The notes beneath the pieces are model-generated. The model was not told the origin of the DNA, ran no database searches, and was given only the letters and a program-made list of their open reading frames with translations. A stretch of 35,699 nt of DNA from Kiloniellaceae bacterium. GTDB lineage: Bacteria; Pseudomonadota; Alphaproteobacteria; Kiloniellales; J153. The stretch covers positions 1 to 35,699 of the forward strand of contig JAJFGO010000068.1 of NCBI GenBank assembly GCA_021776095.1. Direction: 5' to 3'. The position numbers and the translations under genes were made by a program. Numbering within the stretch: the first letter of the stretch is position 1; every line of letters begins with the position of its first letter. Positions 3,733 through 35,699 of this stretch are shown piece after piece.

Positions 3733-6267
3733 TCATACCTTTCTGACCGAAACCACTGTATCCATCCAACGCTGCTGGCCGCTTATGGGCTCGGCCGCGT
3801 TGTCGATGATCCAGTTTGGGTGGGCGCCTCCATCGGTCCACCACTTGAGCTTCTCGTATGGAGAGTCTCGCTCGATACCGTATGGCGCCTTCTTGCCCGA
3901 GGCGTACCGCCCGTATTCCCATCGGCCGCCATGGCTCGAAAAGGCGATGACCCCCGGAACGACGTCCTCGGTCACCTTCGCCGAAGTTTCGATCTCGCCC
4001 AGCCGCGATTCGATTTTGATTTGGTCGCCATCGCCGATCCCCCTGGCCGCCGCGGTTTCGGGATTGATCCAGGCCGAATCACCGCCTCGGATCTCGTCCA
4101 GCCACCGGCAGTTCTGCGTCCTGGAAAGGGTCTGCACGTTGATCCTGAAGGTGGTGAGAATCAGGTCATCGGCCTTCATGTCCCGATGTTCGGGTGTGGC
4201 CCGGTAGCTCGGCAGCGGCGGCAGGCCCTTTCCCTCCAAGATCGCCGAGTACAACTCGAAACGCCCCGACTTGTTGATCGTATCGGGCCTAAAACCTTCG
4301 TAGACCGCACCCCCGACCATCTGTCCGACGTAGCCTTTATAGGCCCCGGGTGTGTCCCGGTAGCCCAGCCTCCGGGCTTCGCTCTCGCTGGATACCTCAG
4401 CGGTCTTCCAGTTCCAGAAGACGCCCGTTGCTTCGTCGCGGATCACCCCGTCTTCTTGAAGCGCCTCGGCGCCGACGGCTCTCTTATAGGAATAATAGGC
4501 CGGCTCGGCCTTGTCGTTGTGCCACACGCCGCGTTTCTTCATGCCGCTGAATCCGCCGGCCCCTTGCTTCACATCCGGGGTCAGCGCGCAGGATTGCTTG
4601 ACGAACTCTTCGGCGGACTTGAAACCCAACGGGAATCCCATTCTTTGCGCCAAATCGCAGCAAACGTCCTTGAAGTCTCTGGCCTCGCCTTGCGGTGGAA
4701 CCACCGGCTGGCGGATGTAGTATTCGGGCACCTGGGTGGGCGAGATTCCGTCCTCGAAGTCGTAGGTCTCAAGGTAGGTGGCATCGGGCAGGATAAGATC
4801 GGCCAGGGCCGCCGATTCGTCGTAGAACGGCGTGACCGCAACGCTGTAGGGGATGAGCGATTGGTCTTTGAGGATGTCCAGGTTCTCCCGAATGTTTCCG
4901 TTTGAGAGCACCGGATTGTAGTTGTACCATAGGTAGACCTCCGGCCGGCCCGCACGGCCGTCCTTGATCATCCTCAAGACCTGGTGGCCGACGCCATGAA
5001 CCGGCAGCGCGGCGTTGCCCTCGAAACCCTCAAGGATGTTCAGCCGCCTGGGAGCGGGCTTGTCCTCCGGGCCCGTCGGATAGCGCCACTGCGGCGCCAC
5101 GCCCAGACATCTGCCGCCGGGATTGTCGATGTTGCCGGTGATGGCGGCCAGCATCTGGATCGCGCGCTCGGCGTCGACGCCGTTGTACTGCGCGCTGGCT
5201 CCTCTCGAGCTGATCACGCAGGCCGGTCTCGCGCTCGCGAATTCGATGGCAACGTTTCTGATCAAGTCGGCGCCCACGCCGCTGATCTCCTGCGCCCATT
5301 CGGGCGTGTAGGCGGCGAGGTGGTCGTTCAGCGCCGCCACCTTCTCCTCGATAGAGGCATTCGGGTTCGGCGTGATCAGGCAGAACTCGAGGAAATCCTC
5401 GCCCTGGCCCCGGTAGAGTTCCTCGGCCATCACTACGTTGCACATGGCCAGGACGACGGCGGCATCGGTGCCGGGTCTGATTTGAACCCAGGAATGCGAT
5501 TTGGCGGCGGTATTGGACAGCCTGACATCGAAGGTGACCATTCTCAGGTTGCGGTCGGTCAGGGCGAAAGACAGCCGCCGGGCCAGCGCCACGTGGTTGG
5601 TGTCGGCTTCCATGACGTTGCTGCCGAAGTTCAGGATGAACCGCGTGTTGTCGAAGTCCCAGTTGTCGAAGTTGCCGCCCCAGGTCAGTTCGTGGGCGAC
5701 GAGTCGGGCGCTCTGACCGAGGCAGGAGGTGTCGGCGATGGTGGCGGTGCCGTAGGTTGCTAGGAAGACCTTGTTGATCAAGCTTTTGGCGCTGGCCGAG
5801 ATCCATCCGTGGTGGAACATGAAGCTCTCGGGACGGCCCTCGTCGCGAAGTTTTTGGAGGCGCCCGGTGAGCTCGCCGAGGGCGGTGTCCCAGGATATCT
5901 TCTCCCATTTTCCCTCGCCCCGCTGCCCAACACGCTTGAGGGGCTGGAGAATTCGATCCGGGTCGTAAATCTGGTTGACCCCCGCCTGCCCCTTGGCACA
6001 CAGCGTTCCCATTGTCCTTCGCGAATCGGGATGGCCTTCCACTTTGACGACGTAACCGTTCTCCACGTACCCAATGGCGGCACAGCGGCTGGCGCAGAGC
6101 GCGCAGGCGGTGGCAATGGGCTCGCGTTCCGTGCCGCTCAGGTAGGAGAAATCCTTGCCCCCGGTTTTCAGATTGGTTTCGTGCGCAAGGGCCTTGTTGG
6201 CCGCCAGCGCCGGCGCGCCCGCCGCGGTGGCGGCGCCCAACTTGAGGAAATCTCGACGGCTAACCAT
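3733..6267 (-). CDS. Molybdopterin oxidoreductase, catalytic subunit
   Basis: The 844-residue protein belongs to the DMSO-reductase superfamily, nearest in layout to the PsrA/PhsA/TtrA/ArrA group. It begins with a Tat signal (SRRDFLKLGAA), so the folded enzyme is exported to the periplasm. A [4Fe-4S] site follows with C55, C58, C62 and C90 (CxxCxxxC-x27-CAKGQ). The molybdenum ligand is probably C182 in DTSCLGQSARL. The molydopterin-dinucleotide-binding domain is at the C-terminus (about 700-840). The substrate cannot be read from the sequence: polysulfide, thiosulfate, tetrathionate and arsenate/arsenite enzymes share this architecture. It is the last gene of a five-gene operon, 18 bp after nrfD; GGAGG lies 6 nt before the ATG. 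The accompanying NrfD subunit implies electron exchange with the quinone pool. Confidence 0.9.
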   Translation of the reverse strand: MVSRRDFLKLGAATAAGAPALAANKALAHETNLKTGGKDFSYLSGTEREPIATACALCASRCAAIGYVENGYVVKVEGHPDSRRTMGTLCAKGQAGVNQIYDPDRILQPLKRVGQRGEGKWEKISWDTALGELTGRLQKLRDEGRPESFMFHHGWISASAKSLINKVFLATYGTATIADTSCLGQSARLVAHELTWGGNFDNWDFDNTRFILNFGSNVMEADTNHVALARRLSFALTDRNLRMVTFDVRLSNTAAKSHSWVQIRPGTDAAVVLAMCNVVMAEELYRGQGEDFLEFCLITPNPNASIEEKVAALNDHLAAYTPEWAQEISGVGADLIRNVAIEFASARPACVISSRGASAQYNGVDAERAIQMLAAITGNIDNPGGRCLGVAPQWRYPTGPEDKPAPRRLNILEGFEGNAALPVHGVGHQVLRMIKDGRAGRPEVYLWYNYNPVLSNGNIRENLDILKDQSLIPYSVAVTPFYDESAALADLILPDATYLETYDFEDGISPTQVPEYYIRQPVVPPQGEARDFKDVCCDLAQRMGFPLGFKSAEEFVKQSCALTPDVKQGAGGFSGMKKRGVWHNDKAEPAYYSYKRAVGAEALQEDGVIRDEATGVFWNWKTAEVSSESEARRLGYRDTPGAYKGYVGQMVGGAVYEGFRPDTINKSGRFELYSAILEGKGLPPLPSYRATPEHRDMKADDLILTTFRINVQTLSRTQNCRWLDEIRGGDSAWINPETAAARGIGDGDQIKIESRLGEIETSAKVTEDVVPGVIAFSSHGGRWEYGRYASGKKAPYGIERDSPYEKLKWWTDGGAHPNWIIDNAAEPISGQQRWMDTVVSVRKV

Positions 6268-23835: not shown

Positions 23836-24092
23836 GGAAGGCGCGGCGTTCGCGGCGCGCAGATTTGCCCGACTGGAAAATGGACCCGGGGCCTACCCTT
23901 AGGACCGGTGGTGGCCGGCGCCGTGACCCAACGGGAACTATTGACCCGAAGCCAAAATAGCAGACGGTCGGGACATTGGTCCCTACAAAGTTTTCGCAGA
24001 TATCTTGGGCCTCGTCGACTGGCTCAGAGCGAAGCCCACCTTCAGACGATGTAGGGCGCTGGATCGCGACGTGTCGCGGGTTCTGGACTAGA

Positions 24093-25301
24093 TCATGAAG
24101 TGCAGGGCGTCGTTGAGAAGGCGCCCTCGGGGCTTTCATAAAGGGTCGATGACGAATAGAAAAAGCCGACAAAATCGCCGGAACCCACGACGCAGACGGA
24201 GAACCAACCGCACATCACAGCCCGGTCCTCAAGCCAGTGGCTCCAGTTCCAGTCATCGTCCATTTCGCAGAAGGAGGACGGCAGTTCGGCGGCGAAGGGG
24301 GCGCCAAGACGAGCGGCCATCCTTGCGATGGCGGCCATTTGTCGACCCCGTTTGGTGTGATAGGCGGGGTCGTCGTAGCCCCACCAATCCCAGCAGCCAT
24401 TTGGATTGCCACTGGAAACGCTCGATTGTGGATAGAGAATCACCAGGCGATTTGTCTCCGCCCAGCGATTGTAGCCGGTGGCGCGCGCATAAAGATCGCC
24501 AATGTCGGCCGGCGTCTGCTTGCAGCCGGCGAACGCGATGTGTAGCCGGCAAGGTTCGCCTGCCGCACAGGTGGCAGGTATGTAGATGAAGCCGCTGGAT
24601 GCCATGCCGTGGATCTCGGGATCGGCCAGGAATTCTGACTGATCGAACTCCAAGAGGCGGCTTTCGCCCATCGCTGAGGGGGGCTCTAGCGCGCCGTAGA
24701 GATGCCGCAGGATATCCCCCGCCTGGTCGTAGTCGCAGTCATTGATGAACGGATTCCCGGTTATGCCACACGCGTTTGCCGCTTCCTCGACGATGAAGGC
24801 GTGGCCGGCCGGGATATCGTTGACGTATTTGATGCTTTGCTCTGCGATTCCCGCTTGCCGGTAGAAGTCGCGCGCGGAATCCATCACGGGCCGTGTCACA
24901 GTGCCGTCCTGAGTGCCACTGAAGAGATAAACCCGGTCGTTCGCGAGGCTCGCCAGAGGATCGATGCGGCCGGCATCGGCGAGCGCGTGGGCGCGCGAGA
25001 GAAGTGCGCGTGTGTCCGGTTGCCCTATGAGTGTTTGCATGCAGCGATTGAGCGCGGTCAGCAATTGACCTTCCGCACAAAAGTACGGACCGCCTGCTAC
25101 CACGCCGGCGCCGATGATGCTCCTAGAGTTGGCAATATGCAACTGCACGGCCATGTAGGCGCCGCTTGACAGACCGGAAGCCGTCGTGCCGATCGGGTCC
25201 AACTGCATTCCAGGCAGCGGCTCCGCGGAATTGGCCACCGTTGGTCCTGCGAACGCCGAGAGACCTACAAACATAACAAGTAAGCGAAGAGTGGCGCACA
25301 T
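24093..25301 (-). CDS. PHB depolymerase-like periplasmic esterase
   Basis: The 402-residue protein has a signal peptide (LRLLVMFVGLSAFAGPTVANS) and a lipase box G43-L-S45-S-G47 (TASGLSSGAYMAVQ), then an Asp in SGTQDGTV and a His in IPAGHAF. This matches the short-chain PHA depolymerases with an early catalytic serine, as in the periplasmic PhaZ1 of Rhodospirillum rubrum. The second half has CNGCWDWWGY-like residues (NGCWDWWGYDD), a conserved trait of the group. It probably cleaves 3-hydroxybutyrate esters. The last 40 residues look atypical and may be replaced sequence. I chose the ATG at 25301. A weak FNR-like site lies 60 bp upstream. Confidence 0.8.
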   Translation of the reverse strand: MCATLRLLVMFVGLSAFAGPTVANSAEPLPGMQLDPIGTTASGLSSGAYMAVQLHIANSRSIIGAGVVAGGPYFCAEGQLLTALNRCMQTLIGQPDTRALLSRAHALADAGRIDPLASLANDRVYLFSGTQDGTVTRPVMDSARDFYRQAGIAEQSIKYVNDIPAGHAFIVEEAANACGITGNPFINDCDYDQAGDILRHLYGALEPPSAMGESRLLEFDQSEFLADPEIHGMASSGFIYIPATCAAGEPCRLHIAFAGCKQTPADIGDLYARATGYNRWAETNRLVILYPQSSVSSGNPNGCWDWWGYDDPAYHTKRGRQMAAIARMAARLGAPFAAELPSSFCEMDDDWNWSHWLEDRAVMCGWFSVCVVGSGDFVGFFYSSSTLYESPEGAFSTTPCTS

Positions 25302-25360
25302 GGCCGCCCCTGTTGCGTCGCGAACCAAGCCATATTGTGGGCCAATCTATAGCCGGATCA

Positions 25361-25374
25361 TTGATACAGGTCAG
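25361..25374. promoter_or_regulatory. Weak FNR-type box before the esterase gene
   Basis: TTGATACAGGTCAG matches TTGA-N6-TCAA in seven of eight positions and lies 60 bp before the ATG of the esterase gene. Chance matches of this quality are frequent, so this is only a hint. Confidence 0.25.
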
Positions 25375-25532
25375 CTTGAGGGGCCATATGCTCTGATTGC
25401 CGATATGATTAAGGCGTCGGGTGGACGATCTCGAACGTCGCATGTTGGCTAGAACTCGCCTCTTTGGTCCACTCCGCCTCACGTGGGAATTGTATACTTT
25501 ACAAACCCAGGCAGCCCGTATAAGTTGAGTTT

Positions 25533-25817
25533 ATGTCGCAGGCATTCATTTGTGACGCTATCGCCAGCCGTAGCGTCATTTCGTTCTGGTACGAGGGCCG
25601 CCAACGCGCCGTTGAGCCTCATCTAGTTGGGGTCGATAGCGACGGAGACGTGACACTAAGCGCATGGCAACTTTCTGGAGGTAGCGGGCAGGGCTGGCGT
25701 GACTTTCACTTAGATAAACTCTCCGGGCCTGCCACAACTGGGCAAAATTTCGCAGGGCCACGACCAGGCTATAACCCTGCCGATAAGACCCTTGACCGGA
25801 TAATCTGCCGATTGTGA
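25533..25817 (+). CDS. Small WYL-like domain protein
   Basis: The 94-residue protein matches a single WYL-type module: ISFWYEGRQRAVEPHLVGVD, then GDVTLSAWQLSGGSGQGW, RDFHLDKLSG. WYL domains sense ligands in transcription factors, often in phage-defence and CRISPR regulators; here there is no DNA-binding domain. A TATACT -10-like sequence lies 40 bp upstream, and the gene stands alone next to the IS1595 region. A stand-alone regulatory or sensor role is possible. Confidence 0.65.
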   Translation: MSQAFICDAIASRSVISFWYEGRQRAVEPHLVGVDSDGDVTLSAWQLSGGSGQGWRDFHLDKLSGPATTGQNFAGPRPGYNPADKTLDRIICRL

Positions 25818-25905
25818 TGCCACCGCAATCGCAGGCATGCGGCCATCGTGCCGGTCCGCTGTGCAGCGCACAGCTTGACCAGTGGCTCTTGAACAGAGCG
25901 ACCTC

Positions 25906-26061
25906 CTATTTGTCTTTGTCGTCTTTCTCAGACGGCTTTGGACGAGCAATCTTGCCCAGCTTGTCCTTAAACGCGCGCTCGTCTTCGTCGGCCTCAACCT
26001 CGCGTGCGAGGCGCCTGAATTTTTCAGATTGAGATTCTTTCTTATCGATCGTCTGGGTCAT
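25906..26061 (-). CDS. Small charged protein overlapping the PIN gene
   Basis: The 51-residue protein is extremely hydrophilic and rich in Lys, Glu and Asp (DKKESQSEKFRRLAREVEADE), probably helical. It overlaps the PIN-domain gene by 20 bp, which points to translational coupling. It could be an antitoxin to the PIN protein, but I know no family it belongs to. The same frame continues upstream to 26157 without a better start. Confidence 0.55.
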   Translation of the reverse strand: MTQTIDKKESQSEKFRRLAREVEADEDERAFKDKLGKIARPKPSEKDDKDK

Positions 26062-26566
26062 TAAGGTTCTTTTTCCCACTAAACAATGGCCCATACACCG
26101 TTTCATCTGGCATGTGAATTTGCAGAGGCTTGCCGTTTCTGCAACGCTCTTTGCCACTCAAAACAGTCAAATTTTCGTCGTCATACGTATGCATCGCGTC
26201 ACAATCCCAGAACAACGCTGTCGCCAAATGTATTGCGTCAGGCGCCTTCTTAAGCTCAGGATGTTTTCTCAGTAGGGCTCGCGCGCTTTCCGCAACGATG
26301 GCGTCTAGTTGTGCAACAGTCACATGTGGTTGCAGGAAAATTTCGGCAATGGCTTGGTCATTTTCCTCTGACAACGGTTTGGAATCTTGCCCCTCACACT
26401 TTTTCTTAAAGACCTCAACTTGGCTTAGAGCAGAAGTTAAAATCTCACACTCGCTGCGCTCTGCGGCCTTCCAAACGATTTCTAATTCGCGGTGTTTGGC
26501 AAACTCAGTATTGAGAAGGCCCAGCCACGCGCAAGCGTCCCAATAGTACCGCTTACCCTTCGCCAC
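26042..26566 (-). CDS. PIN-domain protein
   Basis: The protein of 174 residues has the PIN fold with four acidic residues in place: D in YYWDACAWLG, E in SQVEVFK, D in KAPDAIHLATAL and D in HTYDDENL. PIN domains are RNases, mostly VapC-type toxins. Starts are uncertain: TTG at 26632 and GTG at 26566; the latter overlaps the previous gene by only 14 bp. It sits between an unknown gene and a small charged gene, both overlapping it, in a three-gene unit behind an IS1595 transposase. Confidence 0.75.
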   Translation of the reverse strand: MAKGKRYYWDACAWLGLLNTEFAKHRELEIVWKAAERSECEILTSALSQVEVFKKKCEGQDSKPLSEENDQAIAEIFLQPHVTVAQLDAIVAESARALLRKHPELKKAPDAIHLATALFWDCDAMHTYDDENLTVLSGKERCRNGKPLQIHMPDETVYGPLFSGKKNLNDPDDR

Positions 26567-27416
26567 CGGGGCCGTCCCATAGTTCGTCAAGGTATTCGCG
26601 AGCGCCCTTTCCACCTGTGAAATTCGGATCAACCACCTCAGCCAAGGTCGATGTCAGCGACTCAATTTTCATCAAACTATCTGCGGTGATAAGAGTTATT
26701 TCACCGGCCACATTTCGTTTGATCCGGCCCGAAATTCTAACCCTTTCGCCACCCCATACGTCTCGCCAATCATGGCTCTGTCCAATGGCGTCAGCAATTT
26801 CCGCCGGGATCACGCAAACAATTCGATTTTCAGTCAGCCTATCCCTAATCCGCAACGCGGGGCGCCCATAATAAGTAGTTGCATCAAGAACGTGGGCATC
26901 AATTGACCCCAATTCTTCGCCAGAGAAATCCGGGGCTGATGCTCTATGCGTCGCCTCATTTTGCTCGATACGATCAAGCGCCTGTCTTGCGCGCCGCTCA
27001 ACAATTACAACGGGTGCCTTCTCATCACCTAGTCGAAGCGTTGTCTTGCCAACGCCATTCAAATTACGACGGAAAATGCGCTTAAACTGATCCGCGCCAC
27101 GCTCAGACAACCATTCAGGCATAGCTCCGGTTTCGGGCACGTTTCGCAACGCCGTATCAACCCGTGATTTAGCTTCACGGGCGTACTGATCGGCGGGCCA
27201 CTCTGGGTCCAGGCTGAACGCCTCAGCCACTGCCTCAAACGGACTATTCGTGGTTGCGCTAATAAGTTTCCAACCAAACTTTGCGCGCGCGTCATCGCTC
27301 GCAGCGGCGGCTACCACTTCGACAAAATCGAGAACCTGGCGCATGGCATCCTGAACAGTCAGAACGCCGCCATGCTCCAAGCTTGGCTCGACAATGATGG
27401 TTATACGCTCAGCCAC
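26553..27416 (-). CDS. Unknown protein of the transposase-linked cassette
   Basis: I do not recognise this 287-residue protein. It is soluble and has no signal peptide. Residues 1-60 carry a valine-rich segment (RITIIVEPSLEHGGVLTVQD). The C-terminal part (about 170-250) looks like a small beta barrel or OB-like fold (ARHVLDATTYYGRPALRIRD-like stretch, then VWGGERVRISGRIKRN). The start is GTG at 27416 with GGAGG 6 nt before it; the gene lies 12 bp after the transposase stop and overlaps the PIN gene, so it is cotranscribed with both. It may be a regulator or antitoxin of the PIN protein. Confidence 0.6.
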   Translation of the reverse strand: MAERITIIVEPSLEHGGVLTVQDAMRQVLDFVEVVAAAASDDARAKFGWKLISATTNSPFEAVAEAFSLDPEWPADQYAREAKSRVDTALRNVPETGAMPEWLSERGADQFKRIFRRNLNGVGKTTLRLGDEKAPVVIVERRARQALDRIEQNEATHRASAPDFSGEELGSIDAHVLDATTYYGRPALRIRDRLTENRIVCVIPAEIADAIGQSHDWRDVWGGERVRISGRIKRNVAGEITLITADSLMKIESLTSTLAEVVDPNFTGGKGAREYLDELWDGPGGEG

Positions 27417-27428
27417 GCCGCCTCCGCT

Positions 27429-28355
27429 TTACGCCGTGGCGATTGGTGAGCCACGGTAGGTAAGCCGCTTCCCAACAATGCCAGACAACGCAGATTCCGT
27501 ACGCTGACGGTCATCGATACCCAATGCTACGCGATGATTGTAGCGGAAATCAAACTCTCCCAGATACCTCTTAAGATGCTGTTGACTACAGTGCTGATAC
27601 ACGCCGCCAATCCCACGCTTAAGAATAGAGAAATAGCCCTCGACAGTATTGGTGTGCCAAAACTTGCCGCGCACATATTCCTCAATCGAGTGATTGACAG
27701 AGCCGTGCCCGGCAAACTCGCGACCGACCGACTTATACGCCCCGGCCTCATCAGTCATTAGATACGACTTCCGGTCAACATGCGAAACCAGAACCGGGCG
27801 CAAGGTCTTGGCGTTGACGGCAGGCACATGATGCGACGAAACGCGACCATCGCGCTCAACTAACGAAAGAACCGCCTCTTTAGTCGGGATCGGCTTGCCG
27901 CGCTTTGCATTCTTGGCCTTTCCGCCAATAAAGGTTTCGTCGGCCTCAACAACCTTATTCTCGCCACCAAGCCCGCCCGGCACTTTGCCCGCGCGCATCG
28001 CTTCGCGAATGCGGTGTGCTAGGAACCAGGCAGTCTTGTATGTGACTTCTAGCGCCCGGTGTAGCTGGTGAGCCGAAACGCCCTTCTTGCTAGAGCACAT
28101 GAGATAAGTTGCCTGAAGCATCTTATGGAGCGGGATACGCCCATGCTCGAACACGGTCCCGACCTTGACCGTGAACTGCTTCCGGCACTCATAGCATTTC
28201 CACAGGCCAAGTCGGGTGCTTTCGCCATTCAGCTTACCCGCGCGGTCAACAACGCCGCAATGGGGACATTGGGGACCATCGGGCCACAAAATAGACTCTA
28301 GATAGGCGAAAGCCGCCTTTTCGTTGTGGAAATGCTTTTTGGAGAGAATCGACAT
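27429..28355 (-). CDS. IS1595-family transposase
   Basis: The 308-residue protein has an N-terminal zinc ribbon (CPHCG, then CYECRKQF) and the ISXO2-like DDE domain: VVEADETFIGG, LMTDEAGAY and HTNTVEGYFSILKRG. All catalytic residues and the usual N-x-H/E context are present, so it looks intact. IS1595 elements often carry passenger genes behind the transposase; three genes follow here in the same direction with almost no gaps. I could not find a convincing pair of terminal inverted repeats by eye. Confidence 0.9.
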   Translation of the reverse strand: MSILSKKHFHNEKAAFAYLESILWPDGPQCPHCGVVDRAGKLNGESTRLGLWKCYECRKQFTVKVGTVFEHGRIPLHKMLQATYLMCSSKKGVSAHQLHRALEVTYKTAWFLAHRIREAMRAGKVPGGLGGENKVVEADETFIGGKAKNAKRGKPIPTKEAVLSLVERDGRVSSHHVPAVNAKTLRPVLVSHVDRKSYLMTDEAGAYKSVGREFAGHGSVNHSIEEYVRGKFWHTNTVEGYFSILKRGIGGVYQHCSQQHLKRYLGEFDFRYNHRVALGIDDRQRTESALSGIVGKRLTYRGSPIATA

Positions 28356-28446
28356 AACCGTAACCCCATAGACTCGTTCCTAGAATCTTATATGGGATCA
28401 CTTATTGGGTGTGCAAGGTATATATTTCCCAATTATAAAGGGGCTG

Positions 28447-28578
28447 ATGGGTATCGAAATTCAAGAAAAACGGCCAAGAAATCCAGAAGGATCGAATAAA
28501 AACGCTGCCAAACAGAGAATAGAGAGAAGACTGGGGACACCTACCCCCCACATATTGTTATCCGGCTTTTGTTATTAA
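28447..28578 (+). CDS. Possible small basic protein
   Basis: The 43-codon frame has AAGGGG 4 nt before its ATG and encodes a basic, hydrophilic N-terminal half (EIQEKRPRNPEGSNKNAAKQ), then a different C-terminal tail. It may be a truncated start of a DNA-binding gene, such as a phage-type protein, or part of the IS border. It is divergent from the transposase gene. Confidence 0.3.
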   Translation: MGIEIQEKRPRNPEGSNKNAAKQRIERRLGTPTPHILLSGFCY

Positions 28579-28725
28579 GGGGGGAGTAACCATGATCTTC
28601 TTTGATAGCGCTCGTTTTATTTGACCTTAACCAAACATCCTAACGACTCATTAAGAGCTTATCTTGTATAGTGTCACTGTCAGATCAAGAAACAGTCATT
28701 TAGCAATGAGACACACAGCCATGTA

Positions 28726-28740
28726 TTCGCAGTTTTCTGC
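28726..28740 (+). repeat. 15-bp direct repeat flanking the resolvase gene, copy 1
   Basis: TTCGCAGTTTTCTGC occurs here and at 30113-30127, on either side of the resolvase gene. It contains GCAG-TTTT-CTGC, a small hairpin. Role unknown. Confidence 0.45.
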
Positions 28741-28943
28741 CAAGTGTTCGGCGCATAGCGGCTCTGGCCTTCGCCTTAGCTGGGTACGTGATCTGTCGTA
28801 CCCACTCCGGCGGATTGCGCAGTCTCTCTAGATCGAAAATCGAATCTCTCTCACCGCTGCACCCATGAACCGCACTCGCAACTGAATTGAAAAACATCAT
28901 GACCCAAGGCATCGCCAAGAACCGGATCGCCAATACCATGCTA

Positions 28944-29035
28944 GCAAGCTGCCTCAACTCTTGCAGGCAAGCTGCCCCGGTCCAGGCATGCAAGCTGCCC
29001 AGACCCTTGCAGGCAAGCTGCATAAAATCGTGAAA
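28944..29035 (+). repeat. Four tandem 23-bp repeats before the resolvase gene
   Basis: GCAAGCTGC begins at 28944, 28967, 28990 and 29013, exactly 23 bp apart. Copies 1 and 3 also share the unit end CTTGCAG; the fourth is conserved only in its first nine bases. At the unit junctions CTTGC-AG-GCAAG forms an inverted repeat (28960-28971 and 29006-29017). The array ends about 10 bp before the resolvase ATG and overlaps its Shine-Dalgarno region, so it is placed to act as an operator, or as a resolvase binding or recombination site. Confidence 0.8.
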
Positions 29036-29046
29036 GGAGTTGAACG

Positions 29047-29763
29047 ATGAAAGCCATCGCTTATTACCGTGTGTCAACGGATCGCCAGGGCAAGAGTGGC
29101 CTTGGTCTAGCTGCACAAAAAGAAGCTGTGCAACACCACCTAGGCCGTGATGCCAATATCGTCGCTAGCTACACAGAAACCGAAAGTGGTAAGCGCGATG
29201 ATCGACCTGAGTTGCGTAAGGCTCTGGATCACTGCCGTAGGTCCAATCTCGTTCTCTGTGTCAGCAAGTTGGACCGGTTGGCGCGCTCGGCTCATTTCTT
29301 GCTGACCATTCTCAATTCTGGCGTTGAGGTCGTTTTTTGCGATCTTCCGCAAGTGAGCGGGCCTCAAGGCAAATTCCTCTTAACATCTATGGCGGCGGTA
29401 GCAGAGTTGGAGGCCGGGCTGATTTCGGAGCGCACCCGTGCCGCATTGAAGGCAGCGAAGGCCAGGGGTACGAAACTCGGCAACCCGGATCGCGGCGCGG
29501 CTCTAGTGGCGTATGTGAAGGCCAACGGCAACGGGCAGGCCCTAGCGGGGAAAAAGCGGGCGGCTGATGCCAGGGCAGAATCATGGAGGGGGGAGATTTC
29601 GGACATGCTGGCCAGCGGTCTGGGCAATTGTGCGATTGCCAGGGATTTGAATGCTAAGGGAGAGGTCACGGTGAAGGGCGGGCGTTGGACGGCCACAGCG
29701 ATTAGGCGGCTACGGGAGCGGCTGGGGCTGACTGAGGCCACAGTGACGGCTCAAGCGGCATGA
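29047..29763 (+). CDS. Serine recombinase (resolvase/invertase family)
   Basis: The 238-residue protein has the resolvase domain at residues 1-140 with catalytic S10 (AYYRVSTDRQGKSG), SKLDRLARS and EAGLISERTRAALKAAKARG (the long helix E). The C-terminal part has a helix-turn-helix (MLASGLGNCAIARDLNAKGE, then GGRWTATAIRRLRERL). It is a small serine recombinase, such as those that resolve multimers or invert DNA. The ATG has AAAGGAG 7 nt before it, at the end of the 23-bp repeat array. The substrate site is unknown; the tandem repeats just upstream are an obvious candidate. Confidence 0.9.
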   Translation: MKAIAYYRVSTDRQGKSGLGLAAQKEAVQHHLGRDANIVASYTETESGKRDDRPELRKALDHCRRSNLVLCVSKLDRLARSAHFLLTILNSGVEVVFCDLPQVSGPQGKFLLTSMAAVAELEAGLISERTRAALKAAKARGTKLGNPDRGAALVAYVKANGNGQALAGKKRAADARAESWRGEISDMLASGLGNCAIARDLNAKGEVTVKGGRWTATAIRRLRERLGLTEATVTAQAA

Positions 29764-29974
29764 TTCGTGAGTCTGATCCCGCATTGCCATTTCTTACATC
29801 AACGGCGGGAGCCACGGCGGCCAAATTATCCACGGACTCACGCGCCCGCGCGGAGGCGAATATATGGGGCCAGTATAGGCCAAAACGAGGGGGTGTTTCC
29901 CGTCGCTGGATTTTTGAGTTTTCAACTGCCAGACAAGTTCGTTTGGGGTGGTGGTGGACCCGGAAGGATGGAGG
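29764..29974. other. Leader of the hexamer repeat region
   Basis: A frame from ATG 29760 (overlapping the resolvase stop) runs 81 codons to 30005, but its second half falls in the repeat array and reads as low-complexity, so I do not call it. No other signal is seen. Confidence 0.35.
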
Positions 29975-30169
29975 TGGTCACCATCCACCAAACCCTAGGA
30001 AGTGACCACCCGTGACCACCTGTTAACCCATTGACAAATTTGCTAATTTATCTGGTCACGCAGTTAGGTGGTCATGCGGATTTCGTGACCACCCTGACCA
30101 AATCAATAGTTTTTCGCAGTTTTCTGCGGTGGTCATAGTGGTCATGACCACATATGACCAGCGTGACCA
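29975..30169. repeat. Array of twelve TGACCA/TGGTCA hexamers; candidate origin
   Basis: TGGTCA occurs at 29975, 30053, 30069, 30130 and 30139; TGACCA at 30003, 30013, 30086, 30095, 30145, 30155 and 30164. About 0.1 would be expected in 195 bp by chance. Neighbours are 9-10 bp apart in five cases, one helical turn, and TGGTCATGACCA is a full palindrome. Most copies extend to GTGACCAC. An AT-rich segment (TTGACAAATTTGCTAATTTA, 30031-30050) lies inside. One more copy (AGGTGGTCACG) covers the stop codon of the prim-pol gene at 31022-31032. This has the form of iterons for a replication initiator. Confidence 0.75.
30113..30127 (+). repeat. 15-bp direct repeat flanking the resolvase gene, copy 2
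   Basis: Second copy of TTCGCAGTTTTCTGC, here inside the hexamer array; see 28726-28740. Confidence 0.45.
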
Positions 30170-30267
30170 GGGGTGAATGGCAGCCCCTTCCCCAAAACCG
30201 TTACTTGGGTGGTTCGCCGCGTGGTAGCCTCGTTGACGAACGGGCTGGACCCAACAAGGCTACTCGC

Positions 30268-30912
30268 ATGTTCGCGGACCTAAATACCATCGTCCAACTG
30301 ATCCGTACGGGCGTCACCGACGTACGGAGGTACAGGAAGCGGGAGAAACGCGAGGAGATCGTCCTCAACCTGCTGAAGATGTACTTCCTGCTCAAGGACT
30401 GCGTGGAGGAGGGCGAGAGCCTGATCGCGGAGGCGGGACCGGGGCCCGTCGAGACCATCAGGGCCATGGACACGTGGAAGGCGGACGCCACGCTCAAGCG
30501 TTGGGAAGCGGCGCTTCAGCGGCAGGCCGTTCGCCTCAGGTCGCTCGAAGGGTTCGTATATGGGGACTCCAAGCTCGCGGTGATCAACCCCGCGCTACAG
30601 GACAGGATCGGCGAGGTGATCGGTTACAAGTTCGAGCGCGCCAACTCCCTCCACGAGATCGGGGCGGCCCTGTTCATGCGCGTGATGTTCCCGCTGGACC
30701 TGTCGAACGAGGAAGTGGCCAGGTACGTGTCCACCATGGCGGGTTCGGAGGACGACCTGGTAGACGTGGAGAAGGCGAAGGCCGAGATCGCGGAACTACG
30801 AGACAGCTTGGTCCAGTACAGGGCCTACGTCGAACGCCTGTTGTCCGACGACGAGATCGTGGAGCTTTCGCGGACGGCCAGAAATCAGACCCTCTTTCCC
30901 GCCGAGACGTAG
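30268..30912 (+). CDS. Unknown soluble protein of the integrated element
   Basis: I do not recognise this 214-residue protein. It is helical and highly charged, with RRYRKREKREEIVLNLLKMY near the start and a C-terminal coiled segment (VDVEKAKAEIAELRDSLVQY). I chose ATG 30268 with AAGG 10 nt before it; the frame stays open to ATG 30154, but those codons run through the repeat array and look non-coding. Codon use is more GC-rich than that of the surrounding element, so it may have come from elsewhere. It is convergent with the prim-pol gene. Such accessory genes in satellites and islands often serve in defence or helper interference, but nothing here proves it. Confidence 0.65.
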   Translation: MFADLNTIVQLIRTGVTDVRRYRKREKREEIVLNLLKMYFLLKDCVEEGESLIAEAGPGPVETIRAMDTWKADATLKRWEAALQRQAVRLRSLEGFVYGDSKLAVINPALQDRIGEVIGYKFERANSLHEIGAALFMRVMFPLDLSNEEVARYVSTMAGSEDDLVDVEKAKAEIAELRDSLVQYRAYVERLLSDDEIVELSRTARNQTLFPAET

Positions 30913-31026
30913 GGCGGATACACCCGACACGGCCCCGGCCCGTACAGGATCGCGAGAGGACTGGCCCTCCCAAAAGTGCTGATGCGCAAGTTGCAGTTGG
31001 TCAGCGCCGAGCGCTCGGACAGGTGG

Positions 31027-33156
31027 TCACGCCCTCTTGATCACCCATTCGTCCCTAATCTTACGGCCCCTCAGTTCCACCGGCCTAACGCTGGCGATCA
31101 ACTTTTCATTGTTCTCGCAGCCGATCTGCATACCGTGCCACTGGAAAGTTGCCTGGATTGCGCGCCTAACCGTGGTGACGTTGTTTGGCACCATCTCCAC
31201 CCGGCCCGTGGCGTCGTCACGGTACTCGACCCCCTTGATCTTCTTGGCCAGTGCCGACAATGACCAGGACGTGGCGTCGTCTTCCACCGTCGCCATGTCC
31301 AAGGCGACAGCCACCGGCTTGGCGTGGTCGGGTGCTTCAAGACCACCCCTGGCCACCGCAATCCGGTCAGGGTCAACTTCACCACCCACGGGCTCCAATA
31401 CCAGAGTGGTGCGCGCCTTCCCGTGCTTGTCTACCAGGGTAACGGGCTGACCGTCTTCGATCTTGATCAAGCCCACGCTGCGCCGCCGAAACTCCACATA
31501 AGAGCCTTCGCCTTCACCCTTCATGCGGGTGACGGTCATCTTGTGGCCCTGTGCGGTCTTCTCCAGAACCAGCAGACAAGACGACGTGTCTTCCTGTTCC
31601 CCCGCACCCTTCACAGTCATACGGCCGTCCTTCGGCGGATGGGCGGCAATCAAGAGGGCTGCGTTCAACGCCCTGCATAAGCCGTCTGCATACTCCACAG
31701 CCTTGTCCATGTTCTCCTGATCGCTCCTGGACCAGCCGGACGTGGTGCGTTGCCAGGTGTCCAGCACGATCAGCACCGGTTCACCCTTCGCCCACTGGGC
31801 AATGGCACGGCTGAGCCGAGTCATATCTGACGCGCTCATGATCTTTAGCGATTCTTCCACTGCCATGAAACGGTCGGGGTCCGGCTGCTGCTGTTCCTGC
31901 ATCCAGGCACGGCAACTCATGCGCACCCCGTCCGCGTCCTCCAGCGCCAGGAATACTACGCGGTATCCCTTCAGGGTGGGACGGTCGCACCAATCGAGAT
32001 CGCAGGCGATGTGCATTCCCATATCCACACAGGTGGTGGACTTGCCGGTGCCGCGCTTCGAAATCATCCAAGTCTGGCCGAACGCGGGCAACGTGCGCCA
32101 GACAAGAAACTCGCGAAACCGTTCAACCATCGCCCATTCGCGAACATCCTTCAGCAATCCATCTGCCGGGTCTTCATCGGTTGGCACATCATCGCCCTGT
32201 TCCTGCGCTGCGTTCGCCAGAACCTTTTCAAAGGACGGGTGGAACAGTTCATGGATAGCCTGCGAAGTCAGTTGTGCGGCCCACACGTCGCCACCATGCG
32301 TCAAATTGATCCGCCGGGCTTTCCACGTAGGGCTCTTGACCCCAGGACGGTTCTGACCGTAGCTCCAGGCGTTCTTGATCTTCGCCAGCAATTCCTCATG
32401 ACCCCACGGGGGATCACAGCGGCCATTCCATTCAACATTCACCGTCTCGAATATCTTGTCTTGAGATAGACCGAAGTCGCGGAGAAACTGAACCGTCTCG
32501 TAAGTGTGGTCGTCGCCATTCTGACCCTGGAGAGCCGGTTCACGATCCTTCAGCCAGTCGAGTGCATACTGAACGTTCTCGTCCAGGTCCAACTCAACAA
32601 CCGGTACATCGTGGTTCGGGTCCTTGTGGCCGGGTGGACGCACATAGTCAGCCAGAAAGTCAGGCAACTCGGCAATCGGCGCATTAGGATCAATCAGTTT
32701 CCACTCACCCCGGCTATCTTGCGATCCTGCTCCTACGGTGTATCCATTCACTCCCCGAACGTCGATGCCCTTGGGGAAGTCATTGGACAGGCCGCACGGA
32801 AACGGAGCCTGGAAAATCAGGTGATATCCGCCACCGGGGGTCTGTACAATGAGCGTATCGAGTTCCAACAAGAAGTTGTCGATGCCATGTTCCGCGCAAA
32901 TCTTTTCGAACTCGCGCACACCGTTATGCTGTGGCTTGATATCAAGGTCGATAGCCACATACTCAGCACCCCAATGGCAGCCAAAATTCGCATTTGGTAC
33001 CTGCTCGAACCATGTGGCAATCGTGGCCGCGTCGGTAGTCTGCCTGAGATACCAGGACTGGCCTTCCAGGGGGCGTTTTGAGTTTGGCTCGACAACAAAG
33101 ACGCTGATGCCTTTTTCAGCGAACCACTGCGCAAGCTCCAACCGGGACTTGTCCAT
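31027..33156 (-). CDS. Primase-polymerase/RepA-type helicase fusion
   Basis: The 709-residue protein joins two replication modules. Residues 5-170 form an archaeo-eukaryotic (prim-pol) primase domain with D70-x-D72 (AIDLDIK), the GGGYH motif with H112, and the later IDVRGVNGYTVGAGS. Residues about 340-560 form a RecA-like AAA_25/RepA-type ATPase with Walker A SKRGTGKST (K372) and Walker B VLIVLD (D466). The C-terminal 80 residues look like a winged helix (SLSALAKKIKG, then TTVRRAIQATF), suited to origin binding. Such proteins start replication of plasmids and phage satellites. GGAGG lies 7 nt before the ATG; the Xis gene ends 2 bp upstream. Confidence 0.9.
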   Translation of the reverse strand: MDKSRLELAQWFAEKGISVFVVEPNSKRPLEGQSWYLRQTTDAATIATWFEQVPNANFGCHWGAEYVAIDLDIKPQHNGVREFEKICAEHGIDNFLLELDTLIVQTPGGGYHLIFQAPFPCGLSNDFPKGIDVRGVNGYTVGAGSQDSRGEWKLIDPNAPIAELPDFLADYVRPPGHKDPNHDVPVVELDLDENVQYALDWLKDREPALQGQNGDDHTYETVQFLRDFGLSQDKIFETVNVEWNGRCDPPWGHEELLAKIKNAWSYGQNRPGVKSPTWKARRINLTHGGDVWAAQLTSQAIHELFHPSFEKVLANAAQEQGDDVPTDEDPADGLLKDVREWAMVERFREFLVWRTLPAFGQTWMISKRGTGKSTTCVDMGMHIACDLDWCDRPTLKGYRVVFLALEDADGVRMSCRAWMQEQQQPDPDRFMAVEESLKIMSASDMTRLSRAIAQWAKGEPVLIVLDTWQRTTSGWSRSDQENMDKAVEYADGLCRALNAALLIAAHPPKDGRMTVKGAGEQEDTSSCLLVLEKTAQGHKMTVTRMKGEGEGSYVEFRRRSVGLIKIEDGQPVTLVDKHGKARTTLVLEPVGGEVDPDRIAVARGGLEAPDHAKPVAVALDMATVEDDATSWSLSALAKKIKGVEYRDDATGRVEMVPNNVTTVRRAIQATFQWHGMQIGCENNEKLIASVRPVELRGRKIRDEWVIKRA

Positions 33157-33158
33157 CG

Positions 33159-33410
33159 TTAGCCCTCCCGCTTGATACGCGCGATGCGGGAACGCTCGGC
33201 AATGCGCGCGGCTGTCCTTGCGGCCTTGGCCGTGCGCTTCTCATTCCACTTACGCAGGTCGCGCAGACGGTAGATTGCATGGCCGGTACGGCTTTCAGCC
33301 GACTTGATAAATTTTGGACCCGTACCGCGCGCGTGATACTCGACAAGTGTGTGAATGCTCAAGCCGAGGTACGCGGCGGCTTCCTCGCGCGAATAATAAT
33401 GGTGCTCCAT
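33159..33410 (-). CDS. AlpA/excisionase-type DNA-binding protein
   Basis: The 83-residue protein is a MerR-like HTH_17 domain: YSREEAAAYLGLSIHTLVEY, HARGTGPKFIKSAE, IYRLRDLRKWNEKR, followed by a basic arginine/alanine-rich tail. Proteins of this size act as excisionases or AlpA-type regulators of integrase genes. AGGAG lies 7 nt before its ATG. It is translationally coupled to the prim-pol gene (2-bp gap) and divergent from the integrase gene across about 500 bp, the usual layout of an integrase control region. Confidence 0.85.
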   Translation of the reverse strand: MEHHYYSREEAAAYLGLSIHTLVEYHARGTGPKFIKSAESRTGHAIYRLRDLRKWNEKRTAKAARTAARIAERSRIARIKREG

Positions 33411-33907
33411 CGTCCAACTCCTAGCGTTGCGCGCCAGGGTTTGGAGACAGCTACCGTAATGGCAGGCGGATTCCAGGCCCGGCGCTAAGTGCGCAAAATC
33501 AACATCGTGATTTCCTTGGATTTGGGAGGGCGGCGTCCGGTGCTACGGATGCCCTTACCAAGCCGAGCCATCATGCAGAACGGGAACGCTGCACGCGCTA
33601 CGACTGCCCTCAATGTTTAGCGTCCCCAGCCGCGCGGACGATATCTCAATCTAGGGGTTTTATTACCACAATCGGGAGCGAGAGTCAATCTTGGTGTATT
33701 GATAAATCGTACTAGCTAGTGTACTAGAAATGAGATTCTAGGATTTTTTTATCAATAAAAATAATGGTTTAGAATCTGGCGGAGGGAGAGGGACGCTCCG
33801 CCAAGGGTGTCAGAAACGGCAGAATACCTTGAAATATGACCTTTTAACGTCTCATTGTGTGTGGTAAACGTATGTGGTAGCGACCAATTTCCTGGGATAC
33901 TTTGGTC
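33411..33907. other. Integrase/Xis divergent control region
   Basis: No gene is supported. The right half is AT-rich and carries the palindromic cluster at 33697-33757 listed separately. This is where promoters for both directions and any attachment or arm sites should lie. Confidence 0.5.
33697..33757. promoter_or_regulatory. Nested palindromes: putative integrase/Xis binding region
   Basis: TATTGATAAA (33697-33706) and TTTATCAATA (33748-33757) are perfect inverted copies. Between them lie ACTAGCTAGT (33711-33720, a perfect palindrome), GTACTAG twice (33709 and 33721) and a fourth CTAG in ATTCTAGG. CTAG is usually rare in proteobacterial DNA, so four within 30 bp is notable. Likely sites for Xis, integrase or a master repressor. 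Confidence 0.5.
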
Positions 33908-35161
33908 ATGCCCTCGTACCTCCAAAAGCGCCGTCACCTTTGGTACGCCGTCCTAGAGATACCAAAGTCACTTTGCCCCCGCTTCGGCAGGCCCCGGTAC
34001 GTGAAATCGCTCGAAACTGATAGCCGCACTGTTGCGGAACGCCGTGTGATGCCGATTGTCGTTGCCTGGAAGAAAGAGATCGCCACCGCCAGAAATGAGC
34101 CTGTTGACGATGACGCGGCATATTGGCGGCGCGCACTTCGCAACGCCAAGAACGAAAAACAGCGACAAATGATCCTGGAGCAAATCGATGACGCGGCGTG
34201 GGATATCGGCGCGATCAACGTCGAAAACATCGGCGACGCCCCGTCCAGCGATCCCGAGGCGGTGCGCTTCTATTTCAGTGCCACGGGGGCGCTGGTCCCG
34301 TTCGCCGAACACCTTGATGAATGGCTTAGTACGTCGCGAGCCACGGCCAAGACGCAGGATATGCAGCGCTCCGACGTGAAACGCTTCGCGGCCAAGTTCG
34401 CGATGGTGCAGGATGTGACACGGCCAGAGGTGCGGCGCTGGATAACCGAACTCATGAACGACGGTGGTCTGAAGCCCAAAACCGTCCAGCGCATCCTGAG
34501 CGCCCTCAGGGGCTACTGGCGCTATCTCCAAAGCATCGGGGTATCGGGTGAGGATCACGAGCCCTTTAGCAAGCTAGATGTGGCGCGACAGAACCAACGC
34601 AACGAGCCGCGATCAGCCCGGCAGCCGTTTGAGCCGGGTGACGCCGTGAAACTACTCAACGCGGCCTTAGGGCGGGGCGACAACCAGCTAACGGACCTGA
34701 TCCGGCTCGGTATGTGGACCGGCTGCCGGATTGAGGAGCTTTGCGCGTTAAAGATCGAGCAAGTAAAGGACGATCATTTCTCTGTTGGCGATGCCAAGAC
34801 GAAAGCAGGTTGGCGTGACGTCCCAATACACCGGGAATTGGCACAGACAATGGCGCGGCTGATCGAGGACAGCAAAAAAGGCTATGTGCTGTCGGGCCTG
34901 ACCGCGAACAAGTATGGAGACCGTTCTAACGCCATCGGGAAGCGCTTCGGCCACCTAAAAACGGAACTGGGTTTCGGCACGCAGTTTGTCTTTCATTCGA
35001 TCCGCAAGACGGTCGTAACGATACTGGAGAACGCGGGTGTGCCGGAAAATGTCGTGGCCGATATCGTTGGGCACGAGAAGACCACCATGACTTACGGACT
35101 TTACTCGGGCGGGGTATCGCTCGCGGTGAAGCGTGATGCGCTGGCCAAGCTGGCTTACTGA
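33908..35161 (+). CDS. Tyrosine recombinase (phage-type integrase)
   Basis: The 417-residue protein has an N-terminal segment YLQKRRHLWYAVLEIPKSL resembling the DUF6538 head of alphaproteobacterial phage integrases, a SAM-like core-binding domain (about 125-215) and the catalytic domain with R274 (GCRIEEL), H363-x2-R366 (HSIRKT), H389 (GHEKTTM) and nucleophile Y399 (TYGLYSGG). All catalytic residues are present, so it should be active. I chose ATG 33908; a TTG two codons earlier is possible. It is divergent from the Xis and prim-pol genes and lies at the right edge of the element. Confidence 0.93.
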   Translation: MPSYLQKRRHLWYAVLEIPKSLCPRFGRPRYVKSLETDSRTVAERRVMPIVVAWKKEIATARNEPVDDDAAYWRRALRNAKNEKQRQMILEQIDDAAWDIGAINVENIGDAPSSDPEAVRFYFSATGALVPFAEHLDEWLSTSRATAKTQDMQRSDVKRFAAKFAMVQDVTRPEVRRWITELMNDGGLKPKTVQRILSALRGYWRYLQSIGVSGEDHEPFSKLDVARQNQRNEPRSARQPFEPGDAVKLLNAALGRGDNQLTDLIRLGMWTGCRIEELCALKIEQVKDDHFSVGDAKTKAGWRDVPIHRELAQTMARLIEDSKKGYVLSGLTANKYGDRSNAIGKRFGHLKTELGFGTQFVFHSIRKTVVTILENAGVPENVVADIVGHEKTTMTYGLYSGGVSLAVKRDALAKLAY

Positions 35162-35699
35162 GTGACTAGCATACATTCCATAAGCCTGCTTGGCCACGGT
35201 ATTACCGCGTTAGAGCGCACCGACATAACTGAGAATACGGTGGCAAGACATTGTAGGTTATGAGCGCTCGGCACTCACAGGGAGTACCTTCAGCGGCAAG
35301 AGCACGCTCGAAATTTGGCATAAAGCGCTGGCTCGACTGGCTTACTGACTTCCGCTTTGGGGCGCATAGCAGACCAACCTGTGGATGAATTTCTGCTTCT
35401 GACAACGACTCATTGCGGACTCGGAGGCCGTGGGGGTTGGCATTAGAATTGCCGAATGACGAACGGGGTAGGGCGAGAACTTCGGGAGGCCACAGATCGG
35501 ATTCTAAAGTCGTTTATCGACCCTTCACGCTAGGGTGACTGAATCTATCAACCGGTACACGGTGATTGTGACCTATACGGACAAATGGATTGATCGCTTG
35601 GTCGAAGAAGTTGCTGACGCTAAGCTTCGCGGGTTTCAGAATATCTACGCTTGACTCTTATCATTTTTCTGTTCTGTGGCGTCGTACGGGGTGAACACC
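35162..35699. other. Right flank of the integrated element
   Basis: No tRNA or convincing gene is seen. A frame with GTG at 35535 and TGA at 35654 encodes 39 residues (ESINRYTVIVTYTDKWIDRL within it) but has no clear ribosome-binding site and may be a remnant. Attachment site sequence could lie here but needs the other end for comparison. Confidence 0.4.

Follow-up and report, generated by a model that had tools for sequence, protein, structure and literature searches.

A TGACCA iteron array as the probable replication origin of a small integrated element in a Kiloniellaceae bacterium, and repeat arrays beside related helicase genes

A contig of a Kiloniellaceae bacterium (assembly GCA_021776095.1, contig JAJFGO010000068.1) carries twelve copies of a short word within 195 bp, in the neighbourhood of a gene for a fused primase and helicase, and this raises the question as to what the repeats are for. 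A first-pass annotation of the stretch (35,699 nucleotides, referred to here as the window) had read them as the iterons of a replication origin. Its description of the array holds: exact TGACCA/TGGTCA hexamers, seven in the first orientation and five in the second, lie at 29975–30169 around two AT-rich spacers (Table 1). Shuffling the whole window gives an expectation of 13.88 copies, that is ~0.076 per 195 bp, and the array lies ~160-fold above this, where about a hundredfold had originally been estimated. In any 195 bp of the window every other hexamer stays below 12, the runners-up, GACCAC and ACCACC, having 8 copies each. From start to start, neighbouring copies are 28, 10, 40, 16, 17, 9, 35, 9, 6, 10 and 9 bp apart, five of the eleven spacings being the 9–10 bp already noticed for several neighbours. 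The AT content of the 30 bp starting at 30024 is in the top 0.2% of the window.

The extended consensus of the array is approximately C(G/A)TGACCACC. From the 12 array sites we derived a weight matrix of 13 columns and ran it over the window on both strands. Outside the array the top site, with 15.88 bits, scores above ten of the twelve array members and covers the stop codon of the prim-pol gene, as had been reported; its hexamer is at 31024–31029 and the TGA at 31029–31027. The annotation had also placed the array close to the primase-helicase gene. This stands for the stop-codon iteron but not for the main array, which is ~860 bp away behind an ORF and not directly beside the gene. TGACCA occurs 24 times outside the array, a mild over-representation given that shuffles of the whole window average 13.9. 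The single-strand DNA fold of 29960–30180 is better than that of shuffles (z-score −6), as expected from inverted iterons, and the array may contribute a stem-loop. There is no second array in the same genome (4.98 Mb, 122 contigs), where, apart from itself, the array significantly matches only its own inverted half. We also observed an exact 15-bp match, TTCGCAGTTTTCTGC, at 28726–28740 and 30113–30127, flanking the resolvase gene on both sides; the copy within the array belongs to a short inverted repeat whose loop is TTTT.

Table 1 Features of the array and of the element around it (window coordinates)
Feature	Position	Strand	Remarks
Main iteron array	29975–30169		12 exact TGACCA/TGGTCA in three groups: 29975–30018, 30053–30100, 30130–30169
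First AT-rich spacer	30019–30052		68% AT; candidate melting region
Second AT-rich spacer	30101–30129		62% AT; inverted repeat CGCAG-TTTT-CTGCG inside
Nested inverted iterons, part of group 3	30130–30160		TGGTCATGACCA central, one more copy each side
Outlying iteron GCGTGACCACCTG on prim-pol stop codon	31020–31032	−	Best window site outside array
Extra plain TGACCA near prim-pol 3′ end	30998–31003	−	Outside the 15 best non-array sites listed
Prim-pol (PF09250) fused to RepA/RecA-fold helicase (AAA_25)	31027–33156	−	709 aa; proposed initiator
ORF between array and prim-pol gene	30268–30912	+	214 codons; putative start at ATG 30268
Small AlpA/excisionase-like HTH protein	33159–33410	−	HTH_17 below curated cut-off; phage MerR-like, excisionase families
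Tyrosine integrase of element	33902–35161	+	Family matches
Serine resolvase/invertase	29047–29763	+	23-bp repeat cluster upstream
Four direct repeats, 23-bp spacing, GCAAGCTGC core	28936–29044		Directly upstream of resolvase gene

From the contig end inwards, the genes of what looks like a small integrated element are those of the integrase, the HTH protein, the prim-pol-helicase and ORF 30268–30912, followed by the array and the resolvase. At E ≤ 0.01 the prim-pol-helicase matches two Pfam families, Prim-Pol and AAA_25, and the PDB entries matched by a profile of it and four relatives include pRN1 ORF904 and a RepA helicase (1g8y), which we take to be RSF1010 RepA. Pattern searches of genome contigs and viral contigs found no close relatives of the prim-pol. 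The serine resolvase has viral relatives at 9 loci; it perhaps serves in dimer resolution, and the four 23-bp-spaced repeats before its gene are perhaps its binding site. Neither a tRNA scan of the window, which has no tRNA, nor comparison with 8 other family genomes revealed the ends of the element. In those genomes we saw no empty attachment site and no match to 35150–35699, and 24000–31000 gave partial matches in the IS1595 region only. No Rfam family was found in 28400–35699. The last codons of the integrase (35118–35161) are imperfectly repeated (70%) at 35305–35348, 187 bp downstream; the repeat is perhaps left over from an earlier integrase end, or else it belongs to the attachment region.

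The origin reading is supported by arrays beside homologous genes. The annotation had named homologous elements without the array as a ground for rejecting it, and a search on this point turned out in favour of the reading. A single-protein search, at the thresholds used, gave matches in 10 of 58 relatives and 4 of 385 class genomes, the window's own genome being in both counts; eight weaker matches (L012–L019) were left out. A profile built from five prim-pol-helicases (window, L023, L024, L025 and L027, all five also among the loci tested) was run against 61 genomes of the order, 385 of the class and 398 of the phylum, and all its matches were taken up. Excluding L039, which has no such gene and is another part of the L026 contig, and L028, whose gene runs off its contig, the loci L023–L067 together with the window number 44. 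The densest canonical heptamer in 250 bp was determined for each locus, and an array was counted at a log10 score of −7 or lower within 300 bp of the gene 3′ end, a threshold set after the shuffle null, in which the best of 135 shuffles gave −7.1. The controls were 216 ends of other ORFs of at least 250 aa, taken from these loci at distances of 1500 bp or more. A repeat array is present at the helicase gene 3′ end in 24 of the 44 loci, which are not fully independent (L048, L049 and L061 are related), against 3 of the 216 controls (Fisher p ~ 8e-19). The best cluster of the locus is centred within 135 bp of the gene 3′ end in 25 of 45 loci. Many different words are used, for example GCGGACA ×10 (L027), CTTTCGA ×6 (L025), GGCGACA ×11 (L056) and, in the same genus as the window, GTGCGCA ×5 (L024). 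The best-scoring array among the bacterial relatives, at 9366–9588 of L055, consists of GGGGACA ×12 over 223 bp and follows a gene that fuses prim-pol to DUF927.

A hand count by profile coverage gives arrays in 10 of 12 loci where both halves of the protein are matched, in 13 of 23 with the helicase half only and in 1 of 9 with the prim-pol half only. L056 is counted here as both halves by the profile and has no Pfam Prim-Pol match. The sole array in the prim-pol-half-only class is that of L055, which carries a DUF927 domain. Taken together, these rates and the DUF927 domain indicate that the array follows the helicase. The two misses in the both-halves class are the window and L023, a fused protein of the same order with no array within 300 bp of its 3′ end; 20 of the 44 loci lack an array in this test. 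The window fails it because its main array is 860–1050 bp from the prim-pol 3′ end. Such displacement may not be unique, as L042 and L054 have clusters 545–622 bp downstream of the gene. An AT-rich spacer as a general feature is not supported: among 31 arrays its mean percentile is 0.65, and it reaches 0.9 or more in 7. Dense heptamer clusters were also seen far from the helicase gene in L033 (13133–13377, CGGGAAG ×9) and in L030 (3225–4182, ATAAGAG in three blocks).

Arrays of this kind extend to phages. Of 16 phage and plasmid records selected among the matches, seven have an array at the helicase gene 3′ end and nine have none. Rhizobium phage 16-3 (L078) carries CGTGACA ×11 from the stop codon of its prim-pol-helicase gene onward (5373–5614), and this cluster is a candidate origin of the phage; among the open-access papers listed for phage 16-3, no title concerns its origin. 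Rhizobium phage RHph_X2_25 has an array of 12 copies and Roseobacter phage CRP-811 has CTACAAA ×11. The other array-bearing records are the uncultured phages MW202867 and MW202898, Wolbachia phage WO and EBPR siphovirus 5.

The association can be approached from the word as well as from the gene. Scanning viral contigs for three TGACCA at short spacing gave at least 120 stretches, and among the 120 matches listed 25 are two-orientation arrays. Within the same matches, the 3′ end of an ORF of at least 300 aa adjoins 13 of these 25, against 12 of the 95 others. Twelve of the 13 abutting ORFs were scanned (L132 was left out), and 10 of the 12, among the matches listed, are VapE, D5-like or AAA_25 helicases: seven of VapE type (L101, L106, L112, L153, L188, L211 and L212, with a Toprim domain also in L188), two DUF5906/D5-like (L122, L210) and one AAA_25 (L114). 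L101, L112 and L132 look alike and thus are not independent. L109 has a weak DEAD match below the cut-off, and L170 has no match. Thus, the same word is found in arrays beside helicases of several families. The remaining 12 of the 25 two-orientation arrays among the viral matches listed abut no long ORF. Arrays away from long ORFs lie, for instance, at L180 4576–4856, L201 8661–8909 and L119 6340–6597, with genes for a terminase (L201) and a GP88-like protein (L119) nearby. The reversed word, ACCAGT, gave 3 two-orientation arrays among the 120 viral matches listed, 1 of them abutting a long ORF; its clusters lie inside ORFs of at least 200 aa in 83 of the 120 listed, compared with 34 of 120 for TGACCA. 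In genome contigs an exact-pattern scan (at least 118 stretches) gave one two-orientation locus among the matches listed, L248 (Pseudoalteromonas).

We compared C-termini and iterons in 30 of the 33 array-bearing proteins, leaving out L034, L055 and L092 as well as the viral VapE/D5 cases. Over all pairs the correlation is weak (Spearman 0.09; a value this high or higher came up in 347 of 5000 permutations). For the 12 pairs with related C-terminal 120 residues (at least 38 bits), mean word similarity is 3.2 against 1.9, and none of 10,000 permutations reaches this mean. Three bit thresholds were chosen after the all-pairs test, and at these 6, 0 and 1 of 10,000 permutations are at or above the observed mean. 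CGTGACA, for example, is common to phage 16-3, RHph_X2_25 and the bacterial locus L047. Iteron similarity correlates with the helicase core too (0.25, against 0.34 for the C-terminus), a comparison in which shared whole-gene ancestry is still included. These sequence comparisons suggest that helicases with related C-termini tend to share words. The window C-terminus gave no convincing match among 36 others (best E 0.19), and a structure model of it alone was unusable (mean pLDDT 38).

Other readings of the array have to be set against these data. It might be an origin that is read by another protein, as in classical iteron plasmids, where rep follows the iterons, and ORF 30268–30912, which begins ~100 bp past the array and has no function assigned by family searches, would be in the right place. 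It has no family in Pfam, PHROGs, NCBIfam or PADLOC, finds only itself among 58 genomes, and has no relative in viral contigs (pattern scan) or phage records. Its GC3 of 0.87 is atypical, compared with 0.61–0.71 in the resolvase, prim-pol, HTH and integrase genes, and fits the later insertion or cargo gene that we propose it to be. The arrays of the relatives adjoin the helicase gene itself, and the strongest outlying iteron of the window sits on the prim-pol stop codon. We therefore regard a separate reader as unlikely.

The position of the array between two genes and just upstream of ORF 30268–30912 would also suit a cluster of operators, bound by a repressor or activator of that ORF or of the resolvase. 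For an operator, twelve sites facing both ways would be a large number. A search of 29700–31100 found no sigma-70-like promoter where 0.4 were expected, which is a weak test, and the arrays of the relatives stand at the 3′ ends of helicase genes, so that regulation of this sort seems quite improbable. Centromeres are sometimes short-repeat arrays too, and the array could in principle serve partition. As far as the available text of one paper goes, parS direct repeats adjoin a phage repA gene (PMC7157519), and the HTH protein matches a partition RepA model very weakly (15 bits against a cut-off of 348). The nine window proteins scanned with Pfam include no member of the ParA, ParM or ParB families, and the recurrence of arrays at helicase genes also speaks against a centromere, which we consider very unlikely. 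A recombination site of the resolvase, or an att/Xis region, is the least probable reading: only 211 bp separate the end of the resolvase gene from the array and the 15-bp array word recurs on the far side of that gene, but the four 23-bp-spaced repeats directly upstream of the gene are a likelier site, for which reason the pure resolvase-site reading was set aside, and in the relatives, whose loci were chosen by the prim-pol-helicase profile, the arrays adjoin helicase genes.

We thus think it probable that the array is the iteron replication origin of a small integrated element comprising an integrase, an AlpA-like protein, the prim-pol-helicase, an extra ORF, the origin and a resolvase. Judged from its genes, the element is best read as PICI-like or plasmid-like, with an origin that would be used by its own prim-pol-helicase. 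By analogy with the published cases of SaPI Rep, SCCmec Cch2 and the E. coli PICIs, on which the binding, melting and priming steps are modelled, the element would first be excised and the prim-pol-helicase would bind the TGACCA iterons, probably via its C-terminal region, and melt an AT-rich spacer between iteron groups. A RepA-type ring would then be loaded and unwind the DNA, the prim-pol domain would prime, and a host polymerase would complete the circle. The stretch of ~830 bp that holds ORF 30268–30912 may have pushed the array away from the prim-pol gene.

How new is this arrangement? The annotation had called the origin one not seen described, and here it has to be corrected: iterons directly 3′ of the initiator gene are known in SaPIs and PICIs (PMC7581432, PMC6092414), whose published descriptions, like the others used below, are drawn on here for the portions available. 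The kind of origin is already known, and the variant features of the window are the RepA-type helicase fused to a prim-pol, a word of its own and the displaced array. SaPIs and PICIs resemble the window element in having integrase, AlpA or Xis and primase/helicase genes (the AlpA-like match of the window being below the Pfam cut-off) and in having short iterons. Their origin begins right behind the 3′ end of the initiator gene (PMC6092414, PMC7581432); in the window it is the stop codon that bears the best outlying iteron and the main array is ~860 bp off. The iterons of E. coli PICIs form two sets, one on each side of an AT-rich region, and plasmid replication was tested there with a rep-ori segment (PMC6092414); the first two iteron groups of the window are similarly placed around the first AT-rich spacer. 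Gram-negative PICIs are transcribed in one direction (PMC6092414), unlike the window element with its integrase on the plus strand and the HTH and prim-pol genes on the minus strand; the divergent integrase is as in Gram-positive PICIs (PMC6092414). The terS, packaging and phage induction of the SaPIs and PICIs have no noted counterpart in the window element.

As to the initiators, the window helicase is of the RepA-type AAA_25 family, unlike the DUF927- or D5/Primase_Cterm-related initiators of SaPIs and SCC (PMC7581432); the DUF927-containing Cch is related to the SaPIbov1 Rep helicase, according to the same description (PMC7581432). SCCmec Cch2, an initiator helicase whose isolated C-terminal domain binds a putative origin of short repeats downstream of its gene (PMC7581432), resembles what is proposed for the window and differs, from what is given there, in its separate primase, its three iterons with AAGTG and its Primase_Cterm/D5-type helicase domain. 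ORF904 of the crenarchaeal plasmid pRN1 is likewise a prim-pol-helicase fusion. An essential putative origin lies just downstream of its gene, with a stem-loop in place of iterons, and the helicase is of SF3 type (PMC4234260), where the window has AAA_25 and iterons. The window gene carries the PF09250 prim-pol, and its putative origin would consist of an iteron on the stop codon with the main array further downstream. The alpha protein of phage P4 primes, unwinds and binds repeats via a winged helix, all in one protein, and is set apart, by its description, by a Toprim-type primase (PMC4234260). RSF1010 is linked to the window by the profile match to the RepA chain 1g8y; in its RepA/RepB′/RepC system, as outlined in the available account, a separate RepC reads the iterons (PMC4234260), and no RepC-type iteron binder was recognised among the nine window proteins scanned with Pfam. 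Also similar is p101 of Rhizobium phage 16-3, a prim-pol+AAA_25 gene with a repeat array from its stop codon onward; there the word is CGTGACA rather than TGACCA, the array is not displaced, and the carrier is a full phage. Among the matches listed from the open-access literature, no title or abstract opening mentions iterons at RepA-type prim-pol-helicases. A paper on prim-pol-type proteins describes RepA helicase fusions, and the word iteron is absent from the main text as available (PMC5862659).

A sequence curiosity has thus become a testable origin, and a simple rule is suggested for finding origins in integrated elements and prophages, namely to search the 3′ end of the primase-helicase gene for its densest short word. 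This array rule across elements is the part likely to interest specialists. More generally, the RepA-type (RecA-fold) AAA_25 helicases found in mobile elements, whether fused to a primase or not, could be self-specific initiators whose variable C-terminus reads a private word arrayed at the 3′ end of their own gene. VapE, D5 and DUF927 proteins could behave likewise, which would make helicase-plus-iteron cassettes, with a readable code between C-terminus and word, a replicon type general to bacterial mobile elements, TGACCA being one recurrent word; we hold the chances for and against this generalisation to be about even. The helicases that, in the accounts cited, bind iterons of their own belong to SaPIs, PICIs, SCC or P4, and in RSF1010 the iterons are left by RepA to RepC; with respect to these, recognition of its own iterons by a RepA-type helicase would be new. 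If the pairing of C-terminus and word holds, the incompatibility of satellites and prophages and the specificity of their origins might be predictable from sequence.
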